From Deltaproteobacteria bacterium (GTDB lineage Bacteria > Desulfobacterota > Desulfobulbia > Desulfobulbales > JAGXFP01), in NCBI GenBank assembly GCA_020056965.1, contig JAGVGT010000080.1, forward strand, positions 1-64,000: 64,000 nucleotides of DNA, read 5' to 3'. The translations under genes were made by a program, and so were the position numbers. The first letter of the stretch is position 1, and every line of letters begins with the position of its first letter. Shown piece after piece: positions 3,194-33,568 of the stretch. The notes under the pieces were generated by a model. That model made no database searches, was not told where the DNA came from, and was given only the letters and a program-made list of their open reading frames with translations.

Positions 3194-6100
3194 ATGAAGT
3201 TTCTCAACAAGTTGCACGGTCTCAAGATTACCATGATTTTTCCGGTGGCGCTGATCGGGCTGGTCCTGGTCCTGGGCTGGCAGGCGGCGGCCTCCCGAGT
3301 CCGTTCCGTCGATACCGAGATGCGGGAAAATCTGCTCCAGAGGGCCTTGGAGGTGGCCCGACAGATTGACCCCAATCTGGTCAAGAAACTTACCTTTACG
3401 GCGGCTGACCGGGGAACCCCGGCCTTTGCGCGGATCAGTGAACAGCTGCGGGCCATCGGCCAGCGTTTTCCCCAACGTGGCATTTACAGCATGGCCATGC
3501 GGGACGGACGGATCGTTTTCGGACCGGAAAATTATCCCCCCGGCGATCCCCAGGCCAGCCCGCCCGGCACGGTCTATCGGGAGCCTTCGGAGGCCTTCCG
3601 GAAAATATTTACGGACCATCGTCCTCTAACCGAAGGTCCGGGGGCGGATGAATACGGCAACTTCGTCTCTGCCATCGCCCCGGTGCTTGATCCGGTCTCG
3701 GACGAACTGCTGATGGTAGTCGGCATCGACATCGAGGTCAGCGATTGGCAGAACAAGCTGATCACCGCCCACCGCGGGCCGTTCTTGCTGACTTGCGCCT
3801 TGATTGCCAGTCTGCTGGGAGGGGCGGTCGTCGTCCGCTGGCGAAATCGTCAGGAGCGCACCGATACGCTGCGTCTCAAGATGTGGATCGTTGCACCCAC
3901 CGCCTTGGCGGTGCTGTTTGTGGGACTGTTGTTCTGCCTCTACCAATACCGGTCCGATCTTGATGCCTCCCGCCAGTATATGCTTTTTCTCACCGAGCAG
4001 GCCCGGAACGGCTGGGACCATCATATTGACGACCGGACGCTGATCCTGAAGAACCAGATCAATCTGGTCGCCCATGACGAGGCCCTGATCAAGGCCTGGC
4101 AGGCGAGGGATTTGGCGGCCCTTAACACTCTTGCCCAACCGGTGTTTGCGAACTTGAAACGGGAGGACCGGATCACCCATTTTTATTTTATCGCCCCGGA
4201 CAATACCTGTCTTTTGCGGGTCCATCAGCCCCCTCGTCGTGGCGACCGGATCGACCGGCAGACCCTGTTAATTGCCGAGCAGACCGGCGAGGATGCCTGG
4301 GGCTCCGAACTGGGGCCGCTGGGGACCTTCACCTTGCGCTATGTGCATCCCTGGCGCCGGGCCGGCGTCTTGCTGGGGTACCTGGAACTTGGCATGGAGA
4401 TTGATGAGATTGCCGAGGATCTGGCCAAATCGCATAATCTTGAACTGATCACCGTGCTGCGCAAGAAGTTTTCCTCCCAGGCGAATTTCGAGGCGGGCCG
4501 CCAGGCCTACGGATTCGCCGGTCAGTGGGACACTTTCCGGGATTTCGTGGTGGCCCATCATACCTCAAAGTCAACTCCGCAGGCGATCATGGCGTGGCTG
4601 GCCGAAGACCATCAGGCCTTCAGCAAGGCTGAGGTGTTTTCAGCTCGTCGGGGCGAGCAGAATCTCTTGTGCGGGGTGATCCATCTTCCCGATGCCGGCG
4701 GCCGGGATGTGGCCGATCTGCTGGTTATGTGGGATGTCTCGGCGCAGACGGAGGCCGCGCAGGGCAATCTGCTTCTGGTGCTGGGACTGATTATCGGGAT
4801 GTTCGGCGGCGTCATCGCCATGCTCTGGTCCGTCACCGGCGCGGCTGAGCGCCAGCTTTGGGCGGCCTTCTCACGACTGAGTGAAAGTGAGGCTTCCTAT
4901 CGCCGCCAATTCGCCGACAACCGGGCGATGATGCTCTTGGTTGACCAGGTGGACGGGAGAGTGCTTGAAGCCAACGATGCGGCCCTTCGCTTCTATGGTT
5001 ATTCCCGGTGTGAGATGCTGGCCATGCGGGTTAGCGATCTCAATATTTCTCCCGCTCCGGAGATCGATGATAACTTGGATATGGTGGTGGCTAGCGGGCT
5101 TTTTCAATTCCGCCATCGCTTGGGCGATGGCACGATCAGGGACGTGGAGGTTTCGACCAGCCTGATTCTGTTTGGGGATCGTCCGGTTCTGCACTCCATT
5201 ATTCACGATATCAGCGCCCGCAAGCAGGCCGAGGTGGAGCTGCTGGCAGCCAATCGGCACCTGGAAGAGGCAACAAATCATGCCGAGGCGGCGAATATCG
5301 CCAAAAGTCGATTTTTGGCCAACATGAGTCATGAGATTCGGACCCCGATGAACGGCATTATCGGCATGACCGGGCTGCTATTGACCACCGGGCTTAGCGA
5401 TGAACAGCGCCGATATACAGAGATCGTCCGGACCAGCGGCCAGGCGCTGCTCGACCTGATTAACGATATCCTCGATTTTTCCAAAATCGAGGCCGGCCGG
5501 CTGGATCTGGTCAGCGAGGACTTTGACCTGCGGATTATGCTGGAGGATTTTGCCGAGCTGATGGCGGTGCCTGCCCAGGCCAAAGGTCTTGAATTTGTTT
5601 GCGGCATTGCCCCCGAGGTCCCCACCTTGCTCAATGGGGATGCCAATCGCCTGCGGCAGATTCTCATCAACCTCACCGGTAATGCCGTCAAATTCACCGC
5701 CCGTGGGGAGGTCTCGGTCCAAGTCTCTCTGGCCGGCCAGGAAGATAACCTGGTCGAGCTGCGCTATGCGGTGCGGGATACCGGGATCGGCATTCCGGAG
5801 GATAAAATCGGCCTGCTCTTTTCGGCCTTTCAGCAGGGTGATGCCTCGATCTCTCGCAAGTACGGTGGCACCGGGCTGGGGCTGGTTATTTCGAAGCGGC
5901 TCTCCGAGTTGATGGGCGGTCAGATCGGCGTCGACAGTGAAGAAGGGCAGGGGGCCTCCTTCTGGTTTACGGTGCAGCTGGCTCGGCAGGCGATCGAAGT
6001 AACGGCCCCGACCTCTTCGCCAGCGCCGGCCTTGCGCGGTCTAAAGTTGTTGGTTGTCGATGGCAACGCCTCCAGCCGCGAAGTCTTGGCTCTGATGCTC

Positions 6101-7258
6101 AAGAGCTGGGGCATGCGCCCTGATCTGGCTGACTCGGCCGACCGCACTCTCCAACTGCTGGCCTTGGCCGCCGCCGAAAACGACCCTTATAGTCTCGTGC
6201 TGTTGGATCGACAGATGCCGGGCGTCCGGGACGACGAACTGGGACAACTCCTGGCCGACACTTCACCGCTGGGCAAGTCCGGCTTGGTTCTGATGACGAC
6301 CATCGCCCGCCGTGGCGATCCGGTCTGCCGGGGCCCAATCGGCTGCCATGCCTGCCTGACTAAACCGGTGCGACAATCCGACCTCTACAACTGTCTCGCC
6401 GGTATCTTAGGATTTAGCGAGGTCCGGGAATCCGGTCGGGATTCGAGGCAGGATGACTGCCAGTCCTTGGCTGACGATGGGCAGCGGGAAAAGTTCCAGA
6501 TCCTCTTGGCCGAAGATAATGTTGTCAATCAAGAGGTGGCGTTGACGGTCCTTAAGCAACTTGGTTATCGCGCCGAGGCGGTGGCGAACGGCAAGGAGGC
6601 CATCGCCGCCCTGCAGTCAAACCACTACGACTTGGTGCTGATGGACATCCAGATGCCGGAGATGGACGGACTGGAAGCCACCCGGGCGATTCGCTCCGGG
6701 GCCGCCATGGTGCAGAACAGCAAGATCCCGATTGTTGCGGTAACCGCCAATGTCATGCCCGGCGACCGGGAGCAGTTTTTGGGCGCCGGCATGGATGATT
6801 ACATCGGCAAGCCGTTTTCGAGACAGTCGTTACTCATGGTCCTGGAGCGTTGGCTGAACGGCTCCGCTCAGAAGGGGCCGCAGCCGGCCGGAGAAGCGTT
6901 GGCGGTGGCTGCGCCGATGTCCGTCTCGGCCATCTTTGACCGCAAAGTCCTCCTGGCGCGACTCGACAATGACGAAGAAATCCTGGCCCGGCTGATGCGG
7001 ATGTTCATGGAGAGCGGGGCTGCCGATCTGGCCGCCCTGAAAGAGCAAATCGAGCAGGACAACGCCCCGGCGGCGGGACGGACGGCCCATAAGCTCAAAG
7101 GTTGTGCCGCCACCCTCAGTTGCCCGACCCTTCAGACCACGGCCCTGGTGATGGAAAAGGCCGGCAAGGCCGGTGACCTGCCGGCCTTACGGAGAGGAAT
7201 ACCCGACTTGGCGCAGGCCTTCGAGCAAGTGCGGGAGGTTTTTAGCGACGCACTGTGA
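3194..7258 (+). CDS. Hybrid sensor histidine kinase with two receiver domains and a C-terminal Hpt domain
   Basis: This is a 1354-residue membrane phosphorelay protein. A transmembrane helix at about 13-30 is followed by a periplasmic Cache-like sensor (about 31-200), two helices (about 207-226 and 236-258), a second extracytoplasmic sensor region (about 260-520) and a further helix (about 530-555). The cytoplasmic part has PAS (about 565-690), HisKA with His713 in MSHEIRTPMNG, HATPase_c, receiver 1 (Asp1005 in LLDRQMPG), receiver 2 (Asp1151 in LMDIQMPEMDG) and Hpt (His1299 in AHKLKG). All phosphotransfer residues are present. The ATG at 3194 is preferred to one 39 bases upstream because MKFLNKLHG begins the basic, membrane-inserting N-terminus. 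No output response regulator is adjacent. The ligand is unknown. Confidence 0.9.
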   Translation: MKFLNKLHGLKITMIFPVALIGLVLVLGWQAAASRVRSVDTEMRENLLQRALEVARQIDPNLVKKLTFTAADRGTPAFARISEQLRAIGQRFPQRGIYSMAMRDGRIVFGPENYPPGDPQASPPGTVYREPSEAFRKIFTDHRPLTEGPGADEYGNFVSAIAPVLDPVSDELLMVVGIDIEVSDWQNKLITAHRGPFLLTCALIASLLGGAVVVRWRNRQERTDTLRLKMWIVAPTALAVLFVGLLFCLYQYRSDLDASRQYMLFLTEQARNGWDHHIDDRTLILKNQINLVAHDEALIKAWQARDLAALNTLAQPVFANLKREDRITHFYFIAPDNTCLLRVHQPPRRGDRIDRQTLLIAEQTGEDAWGSELGPLGTFTLRYVHPWRRAGVLLGYLELGMEIDEIAEDLAKSHNLELITVLRKKFSSQANFEAGRQAYGFAGQWDTFRDFVVAHHTSKSTPQAIMAWLAEDHQAFSKAEVFSARRGEQNLLCGVIHLPDAGGRDVADLLVMWDVSAQTEAAQGNLLLVLGLIIGMFGGVIAMLWSVTGAAERQLWAAFSRLSESEASYRRQFADNRAMMLLVDQVDGRVLEANDAALRFYGYSRCEMLAMRVSDLNISPAPEIDDNLDMVVASGLFQFRHRLGDGTIRDVEVSTSLILFGDRPVLHSIIHDISARKQAEVELLAANRHLEEATNHAEAANIAKSRFLANMSHEIRTPMNGIIGMTGLLLTTGLSDEQRRYTEIVRTSGQALLDLINDILDFSKIEAGRLDLVSEDFDLRIMLEDFAELMAVPAQAKGLEFVCGIAPEVPTLLNGDANRLRQILINLTGNAVKFTARGEVSVQVSLAGQEDNLVELRYAVRDTGIGIPEDKIGLLFSAFQQGDASISRKYGGTGLGLVISKRLSELMGGQIGVDSEEGQGASFWFTVQLARQAIEVTAPTSSPAPALRGLKLLVVDGNASSREVLALMLKSWGMRPDLADSADRTLQLLALAAAENDPYSLVLLDRQMPGVRDDELGQLLADTSPLGKSGLVLMTTIARRGDPVCRGPIGCHACLTKPVRQSDLYNCLAGILGFSEVRESGRDSRQDDCQSLADDGQREKFQILLAEDNVVNQEVALTVLKQLGYRAEAVANGKEAIAALQSNHYDLVLMDIQMPEMDGLEATRAIRSGAAMVQNSKIPIVAVTANVMPGDREQFLGAGMDDYIGKPFSRQSLLMVLERWLNGSAQKGPQPAGEALAVAAPMSVSAIFDRKVLLARLDNDEEILARLMRMFMESGAADLAALKEQIEQDNAPAAGRTAHKLKGCAATLSCPTLQTTALVMEKAGKAGDLPALRRGIPDLAQAFEQVREVFSDAL

Positions 7259-7318
7259 AGTTGGCTCGGAGGGTGGCGCCTTCTCCGCGATATTCGTCAG
7301 ATGGGATTGATGACCGGA

Positions 7319-8428
7319 TTATATGCTTTTGGCCAGCAGGCCGGCGAATTCATCTTTCTCCATGGGAAGATCCCTCGGGGAGATCCCCGCGCGGATCAGT
7401 TGGAGTAGCGAGTCCAGTTGGCCGGGGGGTGGCTGGGAGCCGGCTTTAGCAAGATGCCGCAAAAGTTCACTCTTACCAATCTTGGCCCCATAAAACAGCC
7501 GGCGTTGCGCGCCGACCTGTTCCGGTTCATAAGGTTCGTATGTCTCGGGGGCGGCGTTAAGTCCCTGAAGATGCAGGCCTGATTCGCAGTAAAAGATTTT
7601 CTCCCCCAGCAAGGGGTGGTGGGGGGAGATCGATTGGCCGGTCAGTCGGCCGATTAAATCGCCAAGTTCCCTGAAATGGGAAACCCGGTAGTTGCGGTGG
7701 CGGCGCAGTGCCAAAAATCCGGCCACTTCCTCCAGCCGGGCATTGCCGGCCCGTTCGCCTACTCCCAAAACGGTGACATCGGCCCAATCGGCGCCGGCCT
7801 CCAGGGCGGCCAGGCTGTTGGCGGTGGCCATGCCGAAGTCGTTGTGGCAGTGGACCCCGACCTCGACCGCAAAGTTTTTCTTCAGAGTAGTTACCCGTCG
7901 GGCCAGTTCGGCCGGGGTCGCCACCCCCACCGTGTCGGCCAGCCGGATTCGATCAACCCCGGCGGCTGCGGCCGTATTGACGATTTCCAGCAGGAACGCC
8001 GGGTCGGCCCGGGTGGCATCTTCCAATCCCAGTGATATAAACCCGATACCCAACTCTTGGCTCAGGTGGAGAGAATGGTTGACTGCTCCCAGGATCCAGC
8101 CTCGGCTCTTGCCCAGTTTTTTGGTGATGTGCAGGTCAGAGGCCGGGATGGAGAGTGACAGGACATCCGGGCGCAGGCGGGCGGCCACGGCGATATCCTC
8201 CGCCCGGCAGCGGCACCAGAGGGCCAACCGGGCGCGAGTCCTCGCGGCCCGGCAACCGGCCAGGAGACCAGGCAGATCGCCATCCAGGCTGGTCGCCACC
8301 CCCAGCTCGATCTCTTCAATCCCCAGCCGATCCAGCTGGGTGGCGATGGCCAGCTTCTCAGCAAGGCTGAACTGGACGCCGACCATCTGGCCGCCTTCTC
8401 GCAGGGTGGAATCGATTAATCCCTTCAT
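7319..8428 (-). CDS. nifV: Homocitrate synthase NifV
   Basis: NifV condenses acetyl-CoA and 2-oxoglutarate to homocitrate, the organic ligand of the nitrogenase FeMo-cofactor. The 369-residue protein has the DRE-TIM metallolyase opening (DSTLREGGQ), the metal-binding VGVHCHNDFGMATAN segment and the VLGVGERAGNARLEE motif. That, with location in a nif/mod cluster, separates NifV from leucine-pathway isopropylmalate synthases; it also lacks the long regulatory C-terminal domain of LeuA. The ATG at 8428 is chosen because GGAGGG lies nine bases upstream; another ATG six codons earlier overlaps that box. It follows modC on the same strand after 165 bp of repeat-like sequence and probably ends the mod transcript. 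Confidence 0.9.
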   Translation of the reverse strand: MKGLIDSTLREGGQMVGVQFSLAEKLAIATQLDRLGIEEIELGVATSLDGDLPGLLAGCRAARTRARLALWCRCRAEDIAVAARLRPDVLSLSIPASDLHITKKLGKSRGWILGAVNHSLHLSQELGIGFISLGLEDATRADPAFLLEIVNTAAAAGVDRIRLADTVGVATPAELARRVTTLKKNFAVEVGVHCHNDFGMATANSLAALEAGADWADVTVLGVGERAGNARLEEVAGFLALRRHRNYRVSHFRELGDLIGRLTGQSISPHHPLLGEKIFYCESGLHLQGLNAAPETYEPYEPEQVGAQRRLFYGAKIGKSELLRHLAKAGSQPPPGQLDSLLQLIRAGISPRDLPMEKDEFAGLLAKSI

Positions 8429-12063: not shown

Positions 12064-13353
12064 TTACACACACCCTCCGCCGCCACCGGAGCAGCCGCCG
12101 CCGGCGCACTTGACCTTGCGGGCTTTAAGCTGTTCAACCTTCTTGCCTTCGAAAACGGCGGTCAGGCCCGCCTCGATGAAGCCGTTCATCTCTACTGGTT
12201 TGACCCCGGTCTTGGCCAGGATCTCCCGGGGCTTGTCGCCGATGCCGCTGACCAGCACGGCCCGGCAATCCCCGAGCAGCTTGCCCATCCGCAGCCAGCG
12301 CCGAATGCCGCCGCCGGTTTCCGGGGTGGCGCGTTCCTCGACCATTTGGAAGCCCTCAGCGCCCTTCTGCCAGATCTGAAACCGTTCCGCTTCGCCCAGG
12401 TGCTGGTTGACCAGCACCCCTTCCATGGTGGCCACGGCCACATAGGGGCGCTCCGTCGCGGGCGCGACCTTAGGCAGGGTGGCGCAGGCCGACAGGCAGC
12501 CCCGGAACTCATCGGTGCGGTCTTCGTCCAGCAGTCCCACCGCATCGGCCCGGCAGCGCGTGCAATGGCGCATCTGGGGCAGATATTTCTCGGCTTTGGC
12601 CCTGATCACCGCCATCTCCTCCTTGCTGGGCTGGGGCAGATCGCCGAAGGTGGTATCGACGTTGGGGAAGAGGGCCATGCAGTTTAAAAGATCGACTCCC
12701 AGTTCCTGCATGGTGGCGGCGACCGCCTCAACCTGGTCATCATTGATTCCCGGCACCACGATGGTGTTCACCTTAACCGTGATCCCGTGCGCCTTGAGGC
12801 TGCGGATCGCCGCCAATTGCCGGGCCAACAGCAGGTCGGCCCCCTGGATCCCGCGATAGAGGACGTTGCCGTCGCTCACCCAGCTGTAAATCTCGGCCCC
12901 GACTTCCGGGTCCACCGTATTGACGGTGATGGTGACGTGCGACACTTCCAGTTCGGCCAGTTCCGGGATATAGGGGCCGATGGCCATGCCGTTGGAGGCC
13001 AGGCACAAGATCATCTCCGGAAAGCGTTTGCGGATGGCCCGCAGGGTACCCATGGTCTCTTCCGGGTTGGCGAAGGGGTCGCCGGGGCCAGCGATTCCGG
13101 CCACGGTGATGCGCGGCTCCTTCTCCAGCACCTTTTCCATGTAGGTCAGGGCCTGATCGGGCGAGAGGATGGAACTGGTCACCCCGGGCCGCGATTCGTT
13201 GACGCAGTCGTACTTGCGGTTGCAATAGTTGCATTTGATATTGCATTTGGGCGCCACCGGCAGATGCACCCGGCCGAACTGGCCCTTGACCTTGGCGTTG
13301 AAACAGGGATGCTTGGCGAAGTCCTTGGCGGGGATGAGATTGGGAGTTGGCAT
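12064..13353 (-). CDS. nifB: Nitrogenase cofactor biosynthesis radical SAM protein NifB with C-terminal NifX-like domain
   Basis: NifB fuses two 4Fe-4S clusters and inserts carbide and sulfide to make NifB-co, the FeMo-co precursor. The 429-residue protein carries HPCFN, the radical SAM motif CNIKCNYC (Cys37, Cys41, Cys44), the SAM-binding AGPGDPFANPEET stretch and the later CTRC pair. From about 320 a NifX/NafY-like cofactor-carrier domain follows (VAVATMEGVLVNQHLGEAE), then a Gly/Cys-rich tail. It is the third gene after nifE and nifN, 102 bp from nifN, and is probably expressed from the sigma-54 promoter upstream of nifE. A second, cysteine-depleted NifB-like gene is at 27398-28543. Confidence 0.96.
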   Translation of the reverse strand: MPTPNLIPAKDFAKHPCFNAKVKGQFGRVHLPVAPKCNIKCNYCNRKYDCVNESRPGVTSSILSPDQALTYMEKVLEKEPRITVAGIAGPGDPFANPEETMGTLRAIRKRFPEMILCLASNGMAIGPYIPELAELEVSHVTITVNTVDPEVGAEIYSWVSDGNVLYRGIQGADLLLARQLAAIRSLKAHGITVKVNTIVVPGINDDQVEAVAATMQELGVDLLNCMALFPNVDTTFGDLPQPSKEEMAVIRAKAEKYLPQMRHCTRCRADAVGLLDEDRTDEFRGCLSACATLPKVAPATERPYVAVATMEGVLVNQHLGEAERFQIWQKGAEGFQMVEERATPETGGGIRRWLRMGKLLGDCRAVLVSGIGDKPREILAKTGVKPVEMNGFIEAGLTAVFEGKKVEQLKARKVKCAGGGCSGGGGGCV

Positions 13354-24702: not shown

Positions 24703-25170
24703 TTATTGCCCGGACACTGCCTCCGGCCTTCTCTTTCGCAGGCAGATCAAGGCCGTGACCTGCCAACCAAGGCTACGGTAAAAATCCAGTCCTGTCGCAT
24801 TATTTCGGTCGGCCAGCAGCTGCAGACGGTGGGCGTTATGGGCAACCGCCCAATCGCCCAGTTCGGTCAAAAGTCGGCGGCCGATGCCCCGCCCGCGCCA
24901 GGCCACATCCACCACGACATCCTCGACCAGCAGGGCCGGGCCACCCTCGGCGGTGGAGATGGTGAGCTGGCCGGTGGCCATGCCGATCACCTTTCCTTCC
25001 GCCTCCGCCACCAGTACGCGGGCCTGCGGGGTCGCCAACATTAATTGCAGGCCCCGCCGTTGCCGCGCCGCATCGATCCGGAAATCCGCCTCAAGGGCAA
25101 AAAGCTCTCCCAGCAAGGTTGAGAGGCAGTCCAAATCAGCTGATTGGGCCGGGCGGATAAGCCAAGGCAT
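24703..25170 (-). CDS. GNAT-family N-acetyltransferase
   Basis: This 155-residue protein has the GNAT acetyl-CoA-binding signature WRGRGIGRRLL (about 92-102), the preceding beta4 strand LLVEDVVVDVAW and the C-terminal AHRLQLLADRNNATGLDFYR segment. The substrate is not identifiable. It follows the small MKSTW gene by 10 bp and likely belongs to the NifA-driven operon. A broken partial copy of the same protein (shared AHRLQLLADR and DFYR blocks) lies at 26555-26819, split by a miniature element. That shows local duplication of this gene. Confidence 0.88.
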   Translation of the reverse strand: MPWLIRPAQSADLDCLSTLLGELFALEADFRIDAARQRRGLQLMLATPQARVLVAEAEGKVIGMATGQLTISTAEGGPALLVEDVVVDVAWRGRGIGRRLLTELGDWAVAHNAHRLQLLADRNNATGLDFYRSLGWQVTALICLRKRRPEAVSGQ

Positions 25171-25180
25171 GGATTAAGTC

Positions 25181-25426
25181 TTACTCGCTGGGGCTGGTGG
25201 TGCGGATCGAGGCGATCCCGGCCCAGTCGTAGTAGGTGTTGACCGCCAATTTTTCGGCCTCTTCCACGGTGACCCGGACAAACTCCTCGCCCAGGAAGAT
25301 GGTGGCCTGGTCATAGACCTTGCCTTCGTTGATCTGCACGGTCACTCCCTTGCGGAGCTTGCGGGACATGGTGCCGTGCACCGGCATGGAGGCGTATTCA
25401 AAAATCTTTTCCCAGGTGGATTTCAT
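25181..25426 (-). CDS. Conserved small nif-linked protein, MKSTW family, unknown function
   Basis: The 81-residue protein is soluble, with no cysteines or membrane segment and a predicted alpha/beta character. I recognise no domain. AAGGAG is well placed before the ATG. Its first residues, MKSTWEKI, are repeated in the 55-residue reading frame just upstream (25458-25625), and the DNA around both starts is similar, so the two are related. It sits between the Nif11-type gene and the acetyltransferase, behind a sigma-54 promoter. It should be treated as a nif-regulon gene of unknown role. Confidence 0.7.
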   Translation of the reverse strand: MKSTWEKIFEYASMPVHGTMSRKLRKGVTVQINEGKVYDQATIFLGEEFVRVTVEEAEKLAVNTYYDWAGIASIRTTSPSE

Positions 25427-25681: not shown

Positions 25682-25903
25682 TCAAACCCACCAGATCTGT
25701 CTTTTGGACGGGTTGCCGTTTTTTTCAAAGACGTCGCCCGACTCCTTTAATACCGTGTCCAGTTCCTCGATGCTGAAGTTGTAGCCGTCTTGAGCCGCCA
25801 GGGCGATGAACTCCTCCCGGGTGCCGGGGACGTCATATTTGGCCCTGATATTTTTATCTTCGCCGCCGGCGACCAACAGTTTTTCCACGTCTTTCCTTGC
25901 CAT
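25682..25903 (-). CDS. Nif11-domain small protein
   Basis: The 73-residue protein contains TREEFIALAAQDGYNFSIEELDTVL, shown here only as its key pattern: EEF, then A-x-x-GYNF, then EEL. These are the hallmarks of the Nif11 family, named from cyanobacterial and azotobacter nif regions and also used as leader sequences in some peptide natural products. The short tail ends KRQIWWV and has no cysteines, so a lanthipeptide precursor is unlikely. No modifying enzyme adjoins it. It is the second gene of the sigma-54 operon, 26 bp after the first. Confidence 0.75.
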   Translation of the reverse strand: MARKDVEKLLVAGGEDKNIRAKYDVPGTREEFIALAAQDGYNFSIEELDTVLKESGDVFEKNGNPSKRQIWWV

Positions 25904-25929: not shown

Positions 25930-26244
25930 TTAATTTTCTAAAAATTCAATGCGGATGTTTTCCTCATCAACCTCACTTAAACGGTAGGAGCAGCCCTCGC
26001 TGAATTGCAGGCCGTGACTTACGGCTTCATTTTGCAACTGCATGAGGGCATCGATCAGTTCCTCCTCGTTCCCTTCGCTGTTGAGATGCACCAAGATCTC
26101 ACGGTCACTGTCGGTAAACTCCAACAGGAAACCGTTGTGTTCCAGAAAGACCAGATCCTCATGGGCGTATGAAACCCCCATGCCGACGGCCTCGACGATC
26201 TGTTTAACCTTGCCCAAGGGGTAAAGGGCTTTACCGGCGTTCAT
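25930..26244 (-). CDS. First gene of the NifA-driven small-protein operon, unknown function
   Basis: The 104-residue acidic protein has no domain I recognise. The visible pattern is an alternation of helices and strands: GKVKQIVEAVGMGVSYAHED, LVFLEHNGFLLEFTDSDRE and a strongly acidic C-terminus ending NIRIEFLEN. The ATG at 26244 is chosen because GGGAG lies six bases upstream; codons further upstream run through the promoter. The sigma-54 promoter lies about 92 bases before it. The Nif11-type gene follows directly. Confidence 0.72.
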   Translation of the reverse strand: MNAGKALYPLGKVKQIVEAVGMGVSYAHEDLVFLEHNGFLLEFTDSDREILVHLNSEGNEEELIDALMQLQNEAVSHGLQFSEGCSYRLSEVDEENIRIEFLEN

Positions 26245-26462: not shown

Positions 26463-26554
26463 TTTTTGCAGATCGTCGGACAAAGATGCTGGGCCTGGAA
26501 AAAGCCGGGTGTAAAACCTGGAGCGGAATTGGGGTGGCGGTATGGCGTCGGGCG

Positions 26555-26819
26555 AGGTTGAACGTTTCTGGTCCCGGCGTTTCAGGCAGATCAGCTCGGT
26601 GACCGGCCAGGCGATTTTCCGGTAAAAATCCCGAGCGACCGAGCTTCTTGCAAAATGAACGTCATCCCCGAATGTTGTTATCGGGGATCCAGTCTTTTCC
26701 AGCAGCCACAAAATGGATTCCGGCTAAAAGCCTGCCGGAATGACGACTTTTCTTCATTTTGCAAGAGGCTCGACCGTGTTGCTGCGGTCGGCCAGCAACT
26801 GGAGACGATGGGCATCGCG
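26555..26819 (-). pseudogene. Acetyltransferase remnant interrupted by a miniature element
   Basis: The minus strand encodes DAHRLQLLADRSNTV up to 26777 and then, after the 129-bp element, ARDFYRKIAWPVTELICLKRR. Removing the element and one copy of the CGACCG duplication joins the halves in frame, giving a C-terminal GNAT segment matching the intact protein at 24703-25170. The N-terminal two thirds are missing; the remnant starts right after the zinc-ribbon stop codon. It is therefore a truncated duplicate that was later hit by the element. Confidence 0.85.
26642..26770. mobile_element. 129-bp miniature inverted-repeat element with 6-bp target duplication
   Basis: Terminal repeats AGCTTCTTGCAAAATGA (26642-26658) and TCATTTTGCAAGAGGCT (26754-26770) match at 16 of 17 positions. 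The flanks are CGACCG on both sides (26636-26641 and 26771-26776). The interior has GTCATCCCCGA to TCGGGGATCC and GGATTCCGGC to GCCGGAATGACG palindromes. It has no coding capacity, so it must have been moved by a transposase encoded elsewhere. Confidence 0.85.
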
Positions 26820-26823
26820 GGGG

Positions 26824-27009
26824 TTATAAATCCTCGGCCTTGCTGAGGCTATACAGGGCGCGCCACCTGGCCCCGCAGGTGGCGCAGAACATGGCCACCT
26901 GCACCTGGTCGGCTTTGAGCTTTTCCGGAGGAGCGGCGGCCTTGATGGCCCGGGAGCCGCATTTAGGGCACTGCTCCCCGCCCGATTCCACATATGCTTT
27001 GTAGGTCAT
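26824..27009 (-). CDS. Small zinc-ribbon protein
   Basis: The 61-residue protein has two CxxC pairs, EQCPKCGSR (about 14-17) and MFCATCGAR (about 42-45), which should bind one zinc ion. There is no membrane segment. The partner is unknown; such ribbons bind nucleic acid or protein. The ribosome site is weak, but it follows the ferredoxin by only 16 bp and is probably co-translated in the nifH transcript. Confidence 0.65.
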   Translation of the reverse strand: MTYKAYVESGGEQCPKCGSRAIKAAAPPEKLKADQVQVAMFCATCGARWRALYSLSKAEDL

Positions 27010-27025
27010 ATCTTGGGGATGATAA

Positions 27026-27328
27026 TTAACTGATCAGATAATCCGCTGCCGGTTCGCCATCCTCGATCCCGTCAAGGATGGCGTCGATGGCCTCATGGCT
27101 GTCCACCCCTTTGAACCACCAGTTTTCCGGTTGCACCACCACGATCGGCCCCCGGTCGCACTGTTTGAGACAGGTGGTGGCGCTGACCAGGCAGTCGATG
27201 CCGCGGTCGAGAATTTCCTCTTCCAGATATTGCAAAAACCCATCGGTGCTTTTGTGACAGATGCCTTTTTTGTCGCCGGCGACGCGGAAGCTCTGGCAAA
27301 CCAGGATTTGTCTTTCGGGGATGGCCAT
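27026..27328 (-). CDS. Thioredoxin-fold 2Fe-2S ferredoxin
   Basis: The 100-residue protein has cysteines arranged as CQSFRVAGDKKGIC, then TTCLKQC, with the DRGPIVVVQPENWWF strand typical of thioredoxin-like 2Fe-2S ferredoxins found near nif genes in many diazotrophs. It probably carries electrons or protects nitrogenase components, but neither is shown by sequence. AAGGAG lies before the ATG. It follows the NifB-like gene by 69 bp of iterated repeat on the same strand. Confidence 0.85.
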   Translation of the reverse strand: MAIPERQILVCQSFRVAGDKKGICHKSTDGFLQYLEEEILDRGIDCLVSATTCLKQCDRGPIVVVQPENWWFKGVDSHEAIDAILDGIEDGEPAADYLIS

Positions 27329-27367: not shown

Positions 27368-27402
27368 AGTCGGACTTGTCTGACTTGTCTGACCTGTCTA
27401 AC
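27368..27402. repeat. Iterated GACTTGTCT units
   Basis: GGACTTGTC, TGACTTGTC and TGACCTGTC follow one another in a near-perfect 9-10 base tandem array between the NifB-like gene and the ferredoxin gene. Confidence 0.6.
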
Positions 27403-28543
27403 GCATCTTGCTTTTTTTCTTGCCGCCGTCGAAGAGCTGATCAACAGTTCCCTCGATCTCGCCCTCGGTGATCAGCACGGTGATGCCGTGTTCAGTCAGG
27501 ATCTGTCTGGGGTTTTGCCCGGCGCTGGCCGCCAGAATGGCAAAACAGTCATCCAGAGTGGCGGCCAACTCCGTCCAGCGGCTGCTGCCGCTGCCCGGAG
27601 CTGGTACCGGGCGGGTGCCGAGCAGACAGGTCAGCCCATCTTCCCTGGGGCCGTAGATCAACACGTGATACGCCTGCCCCAAATGCAGATCCACTTCCAT
27701 GCCGCTCAGGCTGGCCACGGCAATATTGGGCCGCTTCTTGCTGGGTTTGAGTGCCGCTGTAGTACTCTTGCAAGTACCGAGCAGCGAAGGGCAAGCAAGC
27801 CCCAGGCGATTTTCCTTGGCGGCAAAGATGGCGGTTTGCAGGTATTTTTCGGCGCCATCCCTGACCCGCTGCATCAACTCCAAATCCGGAGGGGTCAACA
27901 TCTGTTCTTCCTGGTCAGCGGGCCAAGCGTAGGGAACCAGCTGCATTTTCTCAGCCCCGCAACTGGCCATGATCCGGGCTATTTCTTCGATGTGATCATC
28001 GTTGATCCCCGGGTAAACCGTGCTGCGGATGGTGACAGTGCAGCCCGCCTCTTTGAAGGCCTTTGCCGCCCGGAACTGTTCTTCCAGCAACATTGGGATC
28101 GCCTGGGAGAGGGGCACCGTCTTTTTGCCCGGTCTGATCCAGGCATAGAGCTTATCCGCCACGTCCCGGGAAACCGCATCCACCAGAAGGGTTACTCCGG
28201 TAACTCCCGCCGCCGCCAGTGGTTTGGCGTATTCCTCACCCTGCAAGCCAAGGGTGGTGAGCGACAAATTCAGCTCGGGATATTTCCGGTGGATACCTTC
28301 TAACGTTTCCAGAGGCGCGGCGATTTCCGCCAGTGGATCCCCGGGGCCGCTGATTTCTACCCCGGTGATTGCCGCCTCTTGCTGAAGATTCTCTTCCAAC
28401 CATTTTAGGGCGCCGGCAGGAGGAATTGCCCGGGCCGACGAATCGGGATGGTCAAAGCGAATTCGGCAGAACGGTTGCTGGGCCACCGGTAGGATAAGCG
28501 TGGTCTTCTTTGCGCCTTGGCTGGGGAACGGGATTATGGTCAT
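27398..28543 (-). CDS. NifB-like paralog lacking all radical-SAM cysteines
   Basis: This 381-residue protein aligns along its length with NifB at 12064-13353, sharing LPVA, the GPGDPLAE SAM-loop region, YPGINDDHIEE (NifB has VPGINDDQVEA) and the C-terminal NifX-like domain (VASLSGMEVDLHLGQAY). The three cluster cysteines of NifB's CNIKCNYC are replaced by Pro24, Ile28 and Asp31, and HPCFN and the CTRC pair are also gone. It cannot be a radical SAM enzyme; it may be a cofactor carrier or scaffold. The ATG at 28543 is chosen because earlier codons fall in a repetitive stretch. It follows nifK by 121 bp on the same strand. Confidence 0.85.
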   Translation of the reverse strand: MTIIPFPSQGAKKTTLILPVAQQPFCRIRFDHPDSSARAIPPAGALKWLEENLQQEAAITGVEISGPGDPLAEIAAPLETLEGIHRKYPELNLSLTTLGLQGEEYAKPLAAAGVTGVTLLVDAVSRDVADKLYAWIRPGKKTVPLSQAIPMLLEEQFRAAKAFKEAGCTVTIRSTVYPGINDDHIEEIARIMASCGAEKMQLVPYAWPADQEEQMLTPPDLELMQRVRDGAEKYLQTAIFAAKENRLGLACPSLLGTCKSTTAALKPSKKRPNIAVASLSGMEVDLHLGQAYHVLIYGPREDGLTCLLGTRPVPAPGSGSSRWTELAATLDDCFAILAASAGQNPRQILTEHGITVLITEGEIEGTVDQLFDGGKKKSKMR

Positions 28544-28571: not shown

Positions 28572-28659
28572 TTGGGAGTAATGGGACTTAAGGGAAGTAT
28601 GGGAATTATGGGACAAAGACCTCCCATTCATCCCCATAACACCCATTGCTCCCATTAAC
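28572..28659. repeat. Iterated ATGGGA / TCCCAT units after nifK
   Basis: The words ATGGGA, AAGGGA and ATGGGA recur on one side and TCCCAT, CCCCAT and CCCAT on the other, allowing a long imperfect hairpin between nifK and the NifB-like gene. Confidence 0.55.
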
Positions 28660-28664
28660 CTTGC

Positions 28665-30038
28665 TTACAGCACCAATTCGAACTTCTCGTCCGGATCATC
28701 CCGGTCCTTGCGATCCAGCAGGACGCCCAGGATTTTCTCCAACAGCCGAATCCCGCCTTTGTAACCGACCGTCGGGAAGTACTGATGGCCCTGGCGATCC
28801 AGAATCGGGAAGCCCCAGCGGACGTAAGGAATATCCTCGTCCTTGGCGATATACTTGCAATAGGTGTTGCCAATGATCAGATCCACAGGCTCGTTCTTGA
28901 TCCACTGGTGGAGCAGGAACATGTCGCCCTTGGCCCTGACGTTGACCTCGTAGCCCATGTCCTTGGTCAACTCTTTAATCCGCTTTTCAAACTTCTTGCC
29001 CGGGGTGCCGGTGACCACATGGATCGGCTTCATATCCATGGAGACCAGGAATTCGGTCATGGCGATCAACTGGTCGGGATCACCAACCAGGGCAACCTTC
29101 TTGCCGTACAGATACTGGTGCATGTCCGAGATCATATCGACCAGCTGACCGCGTTCAGTGACAATCTCCTCAGGGATGCTCACACCGGCGATGGTCCGCA
29201 GGGCGTCGACAAAACGGTCGGTGGCCATCAGGCCAAAGGGCATATCCAAAACCGAACAGGGCACCTTGAATTTGCTGTCGAGTTCGCGGGCCGCATCGGC
29301 GGAACACCACTCGCCCAGGGCCAGGGTGCCCATGGAGTCGCCGCAGCTCTGCAGTTCGGCCACGGTGGTGCCACCGGCGGGGAACATCTTGTACTCGCCG
29401 GAGAGCGGCCCGTTCAACACCCCGGAGGTGTCCGGGAAGAGGATGGTCTTGACCCCGATCAATCCGGTCATCCGCTTGATCTCTTCCATATCGGAGGGTT
29501 CGACCCAGCCGGGGATGATATTGACCTTGCCGTTCTTCTTGCCGGTGGGCTCGGCCATCATGGCCATGGCGGTAACCATGTTGGAAAATCCGGTGACATG
29601 GGAGCCGACAAAGCTCGGGGTTGAGGCACTGATCACGTACTTGCCCTTGGGGATACTGCCTTCCGCTATCGCCTTCTTCTTGATCTGCGGCAGATCGTCG
29701 CCGATGGTCTCTGAGAGGCAGGTGGTGTGGATGGCGATCACCTCCGGCTCATAAACCGTGAAGATATTGTTGATGGCCTGCAGCATGTTGGCCTGACCGC
29801 CAAAGACCGAGGCCCCTTCGGTAAAGGAGCTGGTGGAGGCGGAGATCGGCTCCTTGTAATGCCTGGTTAAGGTGGAGCGGTGATAGGCGCAGCACCCTTG
29901 GGAGCCATGGCTGTGCGGTAGGCACCCATGGATACCCAAGGCGGCGTACATGGCGCCGATGGGCTGGCAGGTCTTGGCCGGGTTAATGGTCAAGGCCGTG
30001 CGCTCCGTGATCTCTAATGGGGTATGGCGGAGTAGCAT
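28665..30038 (-). CDS. nifK: Nitrogenase molybdenum-iron protein beta chain NifK
   Basis: NifK pairs with NifD in the MoFe protein and shares the P-cluster. The 457-residue protein carries TCQPIGAMYAALGIHGCLPH and HGSQGCCAYHRS with the P-cluster cysteines, TTCLSETIGDDLPQ and the NMVTAMAMMAEPTGK region. It lacks the ~50-residue N-terminal extension of the Azotobacter protein, as in clostridial-type (group II) nitrogenases. It lies 152 bp after nifD; the gap holds a short inverted repeat. Confidence 0.97.
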   Translation of the reverse strand: MLLRHTPLEITERTALTINPAKTCQPIGAMYAALGIHGCLPHSHGSQGCCAYHRSTLTRHYKEPISASTSSFTEGASVFGGQANMLQAINNIFTVYEPEVIAIHTTCLSETIGDDLPQIKKKAIAEGSIPKGKYVISASTPSFVGSHVTGFSNMVTAMAMMAEPTGKKNGKVNIIPGWVEPSDMEEIKRMTGLIGVKTILFPDTSGVLNGPLSGEYKMFPAGGTTVAELQSCGDSMGTLALGEWCSADAARELDSKFKVPCSVLDMPFGLMATDRFVDALRTIAGVSIPEEIVTERGQLVDMISDMHQYLYGKKVALVGDPDQLIAMTEFLVSMDMKPIHVVTGTPGKKFEKRIKELTKDMGYEVNVRAKGDMFLLHQWIKNEPVDLIIGNTYCKYIAKDEDIPYVRWGFPILDRQGHQYFPTVGYKGGIRLLEKILGVLLDRKDRDDPDEKFELVL

Positions 30039-30190: not shown

Positions 30191-31834
30191 TTATTCCCAG
30201 TTATACGATGCGCTTAGCTGCGGGTTCTTCTGCCAGGGCGCCTTCATGTAGCCCCAGACCTTGGAGTTGACCATCCGGTCGATTTCCTTATAGAAATTCA
30301 CGGCGCCTTTGAAACCGGCATAGGGTCCGCCGGAGTCGTAACTGTGCAGCTGCTTCATCGGTATGCCCAGTTTCTGGATGGAGAATTTCTCCTTGATCCC
30401 GGCGCAGAAGATATCCGGCTTCATGAGCTCCACCAGTTTCTCCGCCTCGTACTGGTTCAAATCGTCGATGATCAAGGTGTTCTTGTCCATGTCCGGGGCC
30501 AGGCCGTCATAATGCTTGAACTGGTAGCCGGACTCCTCCAGAGCCTTGATTTCCTGGTCAGTCTTGCGCGGTTTGAAGCGGGTCGGGTCGGCCTCGACCT
30601 CGATCTCTTCGATGTTGCGGCTATCGGCATCGACCTTGATATTGGGGATCACCTGGCGACCCTCGTAATCGTCCTGATGGCCGAACTCGTAACCGGCCGA
30701 GATGGTCTTCATCTTCAGCTCATCGAAGAGTTCCTTGTAATGATGGGCGCGGGAGCCGCCGACGAACATCATGGCGGTCTTGTTTTCGGTCCGGGGAGTG
30801 ATCTCCAGCAGGGCCGCTTCCACCTCGGGCATTTCCTCGGCGATAACCTTTTCCACCGTCTCCATCAGCGCCTTATCCCCGAAGTACTGGGCGATCTTGC
30901 GTAAGGATTTGGCGGTGGCCTTGGCGCCGATGAAGTTAACCTTAATCCAGGGAATGCCGTACTTGGTCTCCATCATGTCGGCCACGTAGTTGATCGACCG
31001 ATGGCACATGACCGCATTTAAGTCGGCCTGGTGGGAAGAGGTGAACTGGTCGTAGGTCGAATTGCCGGAAAAGGTCGAGATGCAGGTGATGCCGCATTTC
31101 TTGAAAATCCGGTCGATCTCGAAGCCGTCGCCGCCGATGTTGTACTCGCCCAGCAGGTTGATCTTGAACTTGCCTTCCTTGGGTACGTCATTCTTGCCCA
31201 CCAGATGCCGGAAGACCTGGTTGTTGGCGATATGGTGCCCGGCCGACTGGGAGACGCCCTTGTAGCCTTCGCAGGAGAAGGCATAGACATTACAGTCGCC
31301 AAACTTTTCCTTCATATTGGCGGTGACGGTGTGGATATCGTCACCGATCAATCCCACCGGGCAGGTGGCGAAGACCGCGATGGATTTGGGATGGAAGAGG
31401 TCGTAGGCCTCCTGAATGGCCGCCGCCAGCTTCTTCTCGCCGCCGAAGATGATGTCCTGCTCCTGCATATCGGTGGAGAAGCAGTAGGTCATATAGTTTT
31501 CCCCGTTGGGCCCGCCGCCGTCGGTCTGGTTGCGCCGGGTCAGCCAGGCATAAAAACTACAGCCGATGGGGCCGTGCACCAGGTTGACGATGTCGCGGGT
31601 GGGGCCCATGATGACGCCCTTGCAACCGGCATAGGTGCAGCCGCGCATGGTGATGATCCCGGGAATGGTCCGCACGTTGGCGGCCAGAACCGGGGTGTCG
31701 TTCTGCTGGGCCTCGTTGATCATGATCTGCTTGGCGCGTTTGCGGGCGACCTTGGGCGGGTACTTCTCGAGAAGTTCCGCTTTGATATTGGCCGGGTCCC
31801 ACTGCACCAATTTTGTCTTGGCTGCTGTTGCCAT
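30191..31834 (-). CDS. nifD: Nitrogenase molybdenum-iron protein alpha chain NifD
   Basis: NifD holds FeMo-co and half the P-cluster. The 547-residue protein has MRGCTYAGCKGV, HGPIGCSFYAWLTRRN and ATCPVGLIGDD (P-cluster side), the FeMo-co ligand cysteine in AVMCHRSINY and ligand histidine in LHSYDSGGPYAGF, and GYKGVSQSAGHH for the substrate site. It is about 55 residues longer than Azotobacter NifD because of an insertion around 380-440, a mark of anaerobe-type group II nitrogenase. AAGGAGG precedes the ATG at 31834; codons upstream overlap nifI2. No vanadium- or iron-only signatures or delta subunit are present. Confidence 0.97.
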   Translation of the reverse strand: MATAAKTKLVQWDPANIKAELLEKYPPKVARKRAKQIMINEAQQNDTPVLAANVRTIPGIITMRGCTYAGCKGVIMGPTRDIVNLVHGPIGCSFYAWLTRRNQTDGGGPNGENYMTYCFSTDMQEQDIIFGGEKKLAAAIQEAYDLFHPKSIAVFATCPVGLIGDDIHTVTANMKEKFGDCNVYAFSCEGYKGVSQSAGHHIANNQVFRHLVGKNDVPKEGKFKINLLGEYNIGGDGFEIDRIFKKCGITCISTFSGNSTYDQFTSSHQADLNAVMCHRSINYVADMMETKYGIPWIKVNFIGAKATAKSLRKIAQYFGDKALMETVEKVIAEEMPEVEAALLEITPRTENKTAMMFVGGSRAHHYKELFDELKMKTISAGYEFGHQDDYEGRQVIPNIKVDADSRNIEEIEVEADPTRFKPRKTDQEIKALEESGYQFKHYDGLAPDMDKNTLIIDDLNQYEAEKLVELMKPDIFCAGIKEKFSIQKLGIPMKQLHSYDSGGPYAGFKGAVNFYKEIDRMVNSKVWGYMKAPWQKNPQLSASYNWE

Positions 31835-31847
31835 TATAATTCCTCCT

Positions 31848-32222
31848 TTATGAGATGGACTTGACGCCCGTCTCTCCTGTTCGGACCCGGACCGCATCGC
31901 TGATGGGGAGGACAAATACCTTGCCGTCCCCAGGCATGCCGGTCTGATTCGTATTGATTATGGTCTCCACCACGCATTTCACCATCTTGTCCTCAACCAC
32001 TGCGGTGATCAAACGTTTGGGGTAGAGCTTGCCTTTCTCGCCCAGCAGAGAGGCGGCCTCTTCATAGCCCTGGCGCACCCCTTCCAGGATCTGCGGGTTG
32101 ACAAAGCCCTTGCCCCGGCCATGGGCCTCATGGGCAAAGAAGGCGTCGACGCCGCAGTCGGTCAAGGCCTGCTTGGTCTGGTTCATCATGTTGATTCGCA
32201 CCACGGCGATGACCTCTTTCAT
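31848..32222 (-). CDS. nifI2: Nitrogen regulatory PII-like protein NifI2
   Basis: NifI2 acts with NifI1 to inhibit nitrogenase post-translationally when ammonium or low 2-oxoglutarate signals sufficiency. The 124-residue protein keeps the PII fold (MKEVIAVVRINMMNQTKQAL) and ends with the DGKVFVLPISDAVRVRTGE motif. It has an extended T-loop region relative to GlnB. The ATG overlaps the nifI1 stop (ATGA). It sits between nifI1 and nifD, the placement seen in archaea, clostridia and sulfate reducers. Confidence 0.95.
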   Translation of the reverse strand: MKEVIAVVRINMMNQTKQALTDCGVDAFFAHEAHGRGKGFVNPQILEGVRQGYEEAASLLGEKGKLYPKRLITAVVEDKMVKCVVETIINTNQTGMPGDGKVFVLPISDAVRVRTGETGVKSIS

Positions 32223-32575
32223 GCCGGTACCTCCTCGGCGGCGGCCGCAGTCTCCTTGACCCCGGAGCTGATGGTGTAGGACTCCTGGACATCGCTGATA
32301 AAGATCTTGCCGTCGCCGAAGGCGCCCTTACCCTTGGTGCGGGCCGTTTCCATGATGGTCTTGATGACGAAATCCTTGTCGGCGGCTTGAACCACGCTCA
32401 TCAGCATGACCTTGGGCAACTCGTCGTAGGTCACCTCGCCGATCTTGATGCCGCGCTGCTTGCCGCGACCGGCGACGGAGTACTTGGTAACGGCCGGGAA
32501 ACCGGCATCCATCAGGGCGGCCAGGACGGCATCGGCTTTCTCAGGACGAACAATTGAACGAATCATGAGCAACAT
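32219..32575 (-). CDS. nifI1: Nitrogen regulatory PII-like protein NifI1
   Basis: This is the partner of NifI2 in switching off nitrogenase activity by binding the MoFe protein. The 118-residue PII homolog starts MLLMIRSIVRPEKAD and contains the VAGRGKQRGIKIGEV T-loop and GDGKIFISDVQESYTI. The first ATG (32575) is selected because GGAG lies eight bases before it. It is 81 bp after nifH, with a repeat of CCTATGGGA words in between. Confidence 0.95.
   Translation of the reverse strand: MLLMIRSIVRPEKADAVLAALMDAGFPAVTKYSVAGRGKQRGIKIGEVTYDELPKVMLMSVVQAADKDFVIKTIMETARTKGKGAFGDGKIFISDVQESYTISSGVKETAAAAEEVPA

Positions 32576-32656: not shown

Positions 32657-33568
<912 letters not shown>

Follow-up and report, generated by a model that had tools for sequence, protein, structure and literature searches.

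The stretch of DNA analyzed here (the window; 64 kb) carries on its minus strand a nitrogenase operon in the order nifH (32657–33553), two P-II family genes in the nifI1 (32219–32575) and nifI2 (31848–32222) positions, nifD (30191–31915), nifK (28665–30038), a 381-amino-acid NifB paralog (27398–28543), a 100-amino-acid thioredoxin-like [2Fe-2S] ferredoxin (27026–27328) and, further on, a GNAT acetyltransferase (24703–25170). The nifH, nifD and nifK products score above the cut-offs of TIGR01287, TIGR01282 and TIGR01286, respectively; the ferredoxin matches PDB entries 1f37 (E 3e-7) and 5abr (E 7e-6). The paralog, here called pseudo-NifB, lies directly downstream of nifK on the same strand, 121 bases from its end, and is inside the nifHDK operon as an earlier note on this DNA had stated. 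Its ATG at 28543 is preceded by AGGA, which could plausibly serve as ribosome site; the same frame continues without a stop to another ATG at 28627. No minus-strand terminator was found between nifK and pseudo-NifB in a scan for sigma-70 promoters and terminators, in which the overall number of sites was not above that in shuffled sequence, and a scan for upstream activator motifs with mismatches allowed returned chance-level matches only. A second cluster in the window contains nifE, nifN, a true nifB with all ligands present (12064–13353, minus strand), a solute-binding/ABC transporter set, and a homocitrate-synthase-like gene.

Pseudo-NifB has the two-domain build of NifB: Pfam detects Radical_SAM (43 bits, above cut-off) and a Nitro_FeMo-Co/NifX-like domain (PF02579; 33.1 bits, cut-off 26.3). 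With the true NifB encoded in the window it shares 31% identity over 366 aligned positions (E 6e-53) as well as the GPGDP, PG-N and HLG motifs, which bears out its earlier description as a NifB-like paralog, but at 113.4 bits it does not reach the cut-off of the NifB equivalog model TIGR01290 (343.65). Over the whole 3.08 Mb genome (89.9% complete), this model has just two matches, the true nifB and pseudo-NifB.

What distinguishes pseudo-NifB from NifB is the loss of the residues that hold its clusters. Ten cluster-ligand positions, taken from published ligand sets (PMC9692996; PMC7145814), were checked in an alignment of 88 paralogs and 21 NifBs, along with the NifB fingerprint motifs of PMC5715403. 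The NifBs keep 10/10 ligands, the paralogs zero to four, and the window protein none. The former CxxxCxxC site (28451–28474, minus strand) now reads P24, I28 and D31, the Pro/Ile/Asp replacement noted earlier; HPC, the K1 histidine (HLPVAP in NifB), CTRC, TxTxN and Cx2CRxDAxG are also missing, and the switch loop (ExRP, with C50/E53) is deleted in 88/88 paralogs. By contrast with the paralogs, all 13 co-located true NifBs keep every fingerprint motif except TxTxN, which is found in 11. Radical-SAM cysteines number zero in 74 of the 88 paralogs and one in 14, never more, although the alignment is poor in the N-terminal cysteine column, and counts from it are unreliable. CxxxCxxC itself occurs in 0/80 named orthologs (the best 80 of 145 relatives); it is absent from all orthologs, and NifB catalysis has been lost, as the earlier note proposed. 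Sequencing error is excluded as a cause, because equal losses occur at 80 independent named loci.

The further claim that every ligand has been removed is true of the window protein but not of the family. HPC and the K1 histidine are retained in some paralogs only, mainly basal Desulfovibrionales, which also keep one or two further K-cluster cysteines. Desulfovibrionales sequences such as L061, L073, and L083 retain three K1-type ligands (the HPC cysteine, the histidine and the third cysteine) plus one K2 cysteine, with zero radical-SAM cysteines; judging from these residues, cluster binding may still be possible there. The sole invariant cysteine across the family is C333; additional cysteines occur in many members, in the N-terminal part or the linker. 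Within the barrel, the GPGDP and PG-N motifs and N181 are conserved.

An AlphaFold2 model of pseudo-NifB (pLDDT 86.7 overall, 51 sequences) predicts an intact NifB barrel joined to a NifX/NafY-like domain, in agreement with what the sequence had suggested. The pseudo-radical-SAM barrel (about residues 11–240; 27824–28513, minus strand) has pLDDT values mostly above 90, and structure comparisons, which covered mostly this part, give Z scores of 28–29 to solved NifBs (7jma, 7jmb, 7bi7, 6y1x) vs. 20 or less to other radical-SAM enzymes. A model of the true NifB, of lower confidence (pLDDT 71), was left out of the comparison. The C-terminal domain (about residues 267–373; 27425–27745, minus strand) is assigned from PF02579, profile matches and Foldseek, which pairs it with NifX from a NifEN complex (9ian_F, E 1e-5). 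Profile comparison ranks the NafY core (1p90, E 2e-4) above NifX (9ian, E 0.03) by a small margin, and in the profile alignment with NafY the HFG histidine and the following DC pair line up; taken alone, the domain matches TIGR01290 only, not TIGR02663. Its histidine H287 (27683–27685, minus strand) is the equivalent of NifX H35 and NafY H121. It is invariant in 88/88 orthologs, within an H[LF]G motif in 80/80 named ones (again the best 80 of 145 relatives). The corresponding residue is a ligand of FeMo-co in NafY (PMC8496260) and of NifB-co in NifX, and is absent from NifY and NafX (PMC13128457).

Pseudo-NifB was searched for in the order (96 genomes), in a draw of 395 genomes from the phylum, and in a scan of named genomes. 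It is present in about 53 of the 96 genomes, as orthologs 40–67% identical to the window protein, with true NifBs alongside at 30–36%. The phylum draw added a few more families; from the scan of named genomes came 80 loci (the best 80 of 145 relatives), in Desulfobulbales, including cable bacteria and Desulfopila, in Desulfovibrionales such as Pseudodesulfovibrio and Humidesulfovibrio, and in Desulfamplus. The carriers comprise many sulfate reducers and relatives of these, among them the cultured Desulfobulbus alkaliphilus and Pseudodesulfovibrio pelocollis. The gene is not essential everywhere, since nifHDK without pseudo-NifB is found in some of the order's diazotrophs. Natural gene-less sites, in which nifK is followed directly by the ferredoxin gene, are found in diazotrophs of the same order (L140, L142, and L143); in G008 the ferredoxin begins 14 bases past the nifK match, an arrangement much like that in G013 and G028. 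A Nitratidesulfovibrio vulgaris strain, DP4, also lacks the gene by nature, and on its plasmid the ferredoxin gene comes after nifK.

Where pseudo-NifB occurs, its neighborhood is conserved: nifK is directly upstream in 74/79 loci, which confirms the existence of nifK-linked homologs lacking CxxxCxxC, the ferredoxin gene is next downstream in 77/79, and a GNAT gene follows within 5 kb in 49/54. The ferredoxin and the acetyltransferase are conserved nif operon members (loci L035–L114) and stay with pseudo-NifB when nifK has moved. The five loci without an upstream nifK belong to cable bacteria and one relative, and have the paralog–ferredoxin–GNAT trio intact. A nif-independent role, which these loci might suggest, was rejected, nifK being elsewhere in the genome in 5/5 cases. 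As the gene keeps company with the ferredoxin and GNAT genes but not with nifK in cable bacteria, however, the protein may have the ferredoxin, and not NifDK, as its partner. The thioredoxin-like ferredoxin of Clostridium pasteurianum docks to MoFe protein via acidic residues (PMC8561814); the pseudo-NifB-adjacent ferredoxin is of the same type and, by sequence inspection only, shows an EEE run in a comparable position.

Pseudo-NifB is conserved under purifying selection, which, with the intact predicted fold and the maintained place in the operon, speaks well for a retained function. Reading frames are open in nearly all of some 50 orthologs from 15 families, and dN/dS over 68 pairs (which are not independent) has a median of 0.185 and a range of 0.042–0.305, not near the value of 1 that would have spoken for neutrality. 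Constraint is strongest on the NifX-like domain (0.091) and moderate on the barrel (0.229). The gene evolves faster than other nif genes: nifK gives 0.035 in the same comparison and true nifB 0.044, the latter from two pairs only in a smaller clean set excluding hits to the paralog and nifK. Pseudo-NifB distances correlate with nifK distances (Mantel r 0.70; 0/999 permutations as high).

In a quick tree with some forks open, the pseudo-NifB family is one clade (SH-aLRT 100), with the Desulfovibrionales members that keep K1 ligands near its base. The family descends from NifB, and this descent spans the whole length of the protein. Because early branches of a single clade keep K1-type ligands, we infer that loss began with the radical-SAM cluster and the switch loop, and that the K site decayed later.

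Several known nitrogenase maturation proteins resemble pseudo-NifB in part. NifY is a two-domain NifX-like protein encoded, like pseudo-NifB, behind nifK (nifHDKTY). The N-terminal parts of the two proteins differ, and NifY lacks the cofactor histidine (PMC13128457) that pseudo-NifB keeps. The NifB-co carrier NifX has a homologous cofactor domain with the ligand histidine, but pseudo-NifB is much longer, by the barrel, and is encoded in the nifDK operon of a genome with no TIGR02663 match at E 1e-5. NafY, an escort of FeMo-co and chaperone of apo-NifDK, has a C-terminal NifX-like domain with an HFG-type histidine, a joined N-terminal domain and a link to NifDK. Its N-terminus, however, is all-helical and binds apo-NifDK, whereas pseudo-NifB is modeled with a dead TIM-type alpha/beta barrel, for which such binding is a prediction only. 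The finding has also been partly anticipated: most of the NifB sequences excluded in PMC5715403 lacked Cx3Cx2C and were thought to be misannotated NifX. By description, those sequences likewise keep the NifX domain, but pseudo-NifB has a complete barrel and forms a separate clade. A misannotated NifX without a barrel is rejected here, since the barrel is complete both by sequence and in the model. No paper on the pseudo-NifB clade was found in the open-licence literature searched.

With its cofactor domain conserved, its chemistry removed, and its gene placed with nifDK, pseudo-NifB is most simply read as a NifB-derived pseudoenzyme, a NafY/NifX-like escort or insertion factor that brings cofactor to MoFe protein; on sequence evidence, we put the probability of this at about 0.5. 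It derives from a duplicated NifB and can bind neither the radical-SAM cluster nor the K-clusters any longer, and so does not synthesize NifB-co. Made together with NifD and NifK, the protein would hold a FeMo-co-type cluster (NifB-co or finished FeMo-co) via H287 in its C-terminal domain, the dead barrel would be the docking part, probably towards apo-NifDK, and the outcome would be either delivery of the cofactor or an empty MoFe protein kept ready. Cofactor binding, the identity of the cofactor and the docking partner are what we infer from the comparisons above; kinship of the adjacent ferredoxin with the MoFe-docking one of C. pasteurianum fits by analogy. Among the carrier, chaperone and regulator roles offered in the earlier note, the first two are the best supported, since the cofactor histidine is invariant and its domain the most constrained; carrying to NifEN, insertion into NifDK and regulation are not separable from one another by sequence. 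As the NifX-like domain was inherited from the NifB ancestor, its presence alone is no proof of a carrier role. A more elaborate version, which we hold only tentatively, is that a whole lineage of anaerobes recruited a duplicated NifB as a non-catalytic, dedicated escort whose dead barrel docks to or gates apo-NifDK, forming with the ferredoxin and acetyltransferase a MoFe-maturation module, an anaerobic counterpart of NafY, and that the early branches with K1 ligands may hold a cluster in the barrel.

The invariant histidine would also serve a NifX-type carrier that takes NifB-co from true NifB to NifEN, docking by NifB-derived surfaces and not serving NifDK. Descent from NifB over the whole length is consistent with such surfaces, and many pseudo-NifB genomes, the window's included, have no free-standing nifX match. 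The gene is in the nifDK operon rather than with nifENB, however, the domain profile slightly prefers NafY to NifX, and in 17 of the 53 genomes with pseudo-NifB a small NifX is encoded beside nifB as well. Presence or absence of nifX and pseudo-NifB is not significantly associated either way (Fisher p 0.26), and the argument from it was dropped. On balance, we consider this carrier unlikely. Somewhat less likely still is a regulator or decoy, binding no cofactor, whose dead barrel would associate with NifB, the ferredoxin or P-II proteins to tune cofactor synthesis to the supply of NifDK. Pseudoenzymes often regulate their active relatives, the same operon holds two P-II genes, and the barrel keeps its fold and its GPGDP and PG-N motifs under moderate constraint; it is, however, the NifX-like domain and its histidine that are most constrained, not the barrel.

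The barrel could conceivably have kept or acquired an enzymatic or ligand-binding activity of its own, for example binding SAM or a cluster via other residues. Conservation of GPGDP and N181, the K1-type ligands of basal members, and the additional cysteines of many others point that way, but with zero ligands in the window protein, only C333 invariant in the family and the switch loop deleted in all 88, we regard such an activity as improbable. Least credible is a functionless, decaying pseudogene: the faster evolution relative to nifK and the absence of the gene from some diazotrophs might be expected of one, but the low dN/dS and the roughly 50 open orthologs contradict it, as do the invariant residues and conserved operon position.

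If the escort reading is correct, the Mo-nitrogenase operons of many anaerobes encode an extra component for MoFe maturation. How cofactor passes among NifB, NifEN and apo-NifDK is still under study, with most of the knowledge coming from Azotobacter. Pseudo-NifB is missing from the nif genes usually listed, and probably goes under annotations like radical SAM protein and NifB/NifX family protein; NifB counts made from domain hits will over-count genomes that carry it, and heterologous nif sets assembled from such bacteria should include it. It would also be a clear case of a radical-SAM pseudoenzyme in which the order of losses is preserved.

Some minor features may be recorded. At L146, on a plasmid of Nitratidesulfovibrio vulgaris RCH1, a NifB-like match (about 6001–7434) is split in two, and the annotation gives just a short NifB/NifX family CDS, in contrast to strain DP4; a disruption of nifB or an incomplete annotation as distributed may be the reason. 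In the window, a 73-amino-acid ORF with a Nif11 domain (25683–25903, minus strand) is flanked by small ORFs of unknown family at 25181–25426 and 25930–26241. Remnants of a second GNAT copy lie at about 26550–26850 (minus strand), apparently split by a palindromic repeat element of ~135 bases (26638–26772) with about 20 partial genomic matches.
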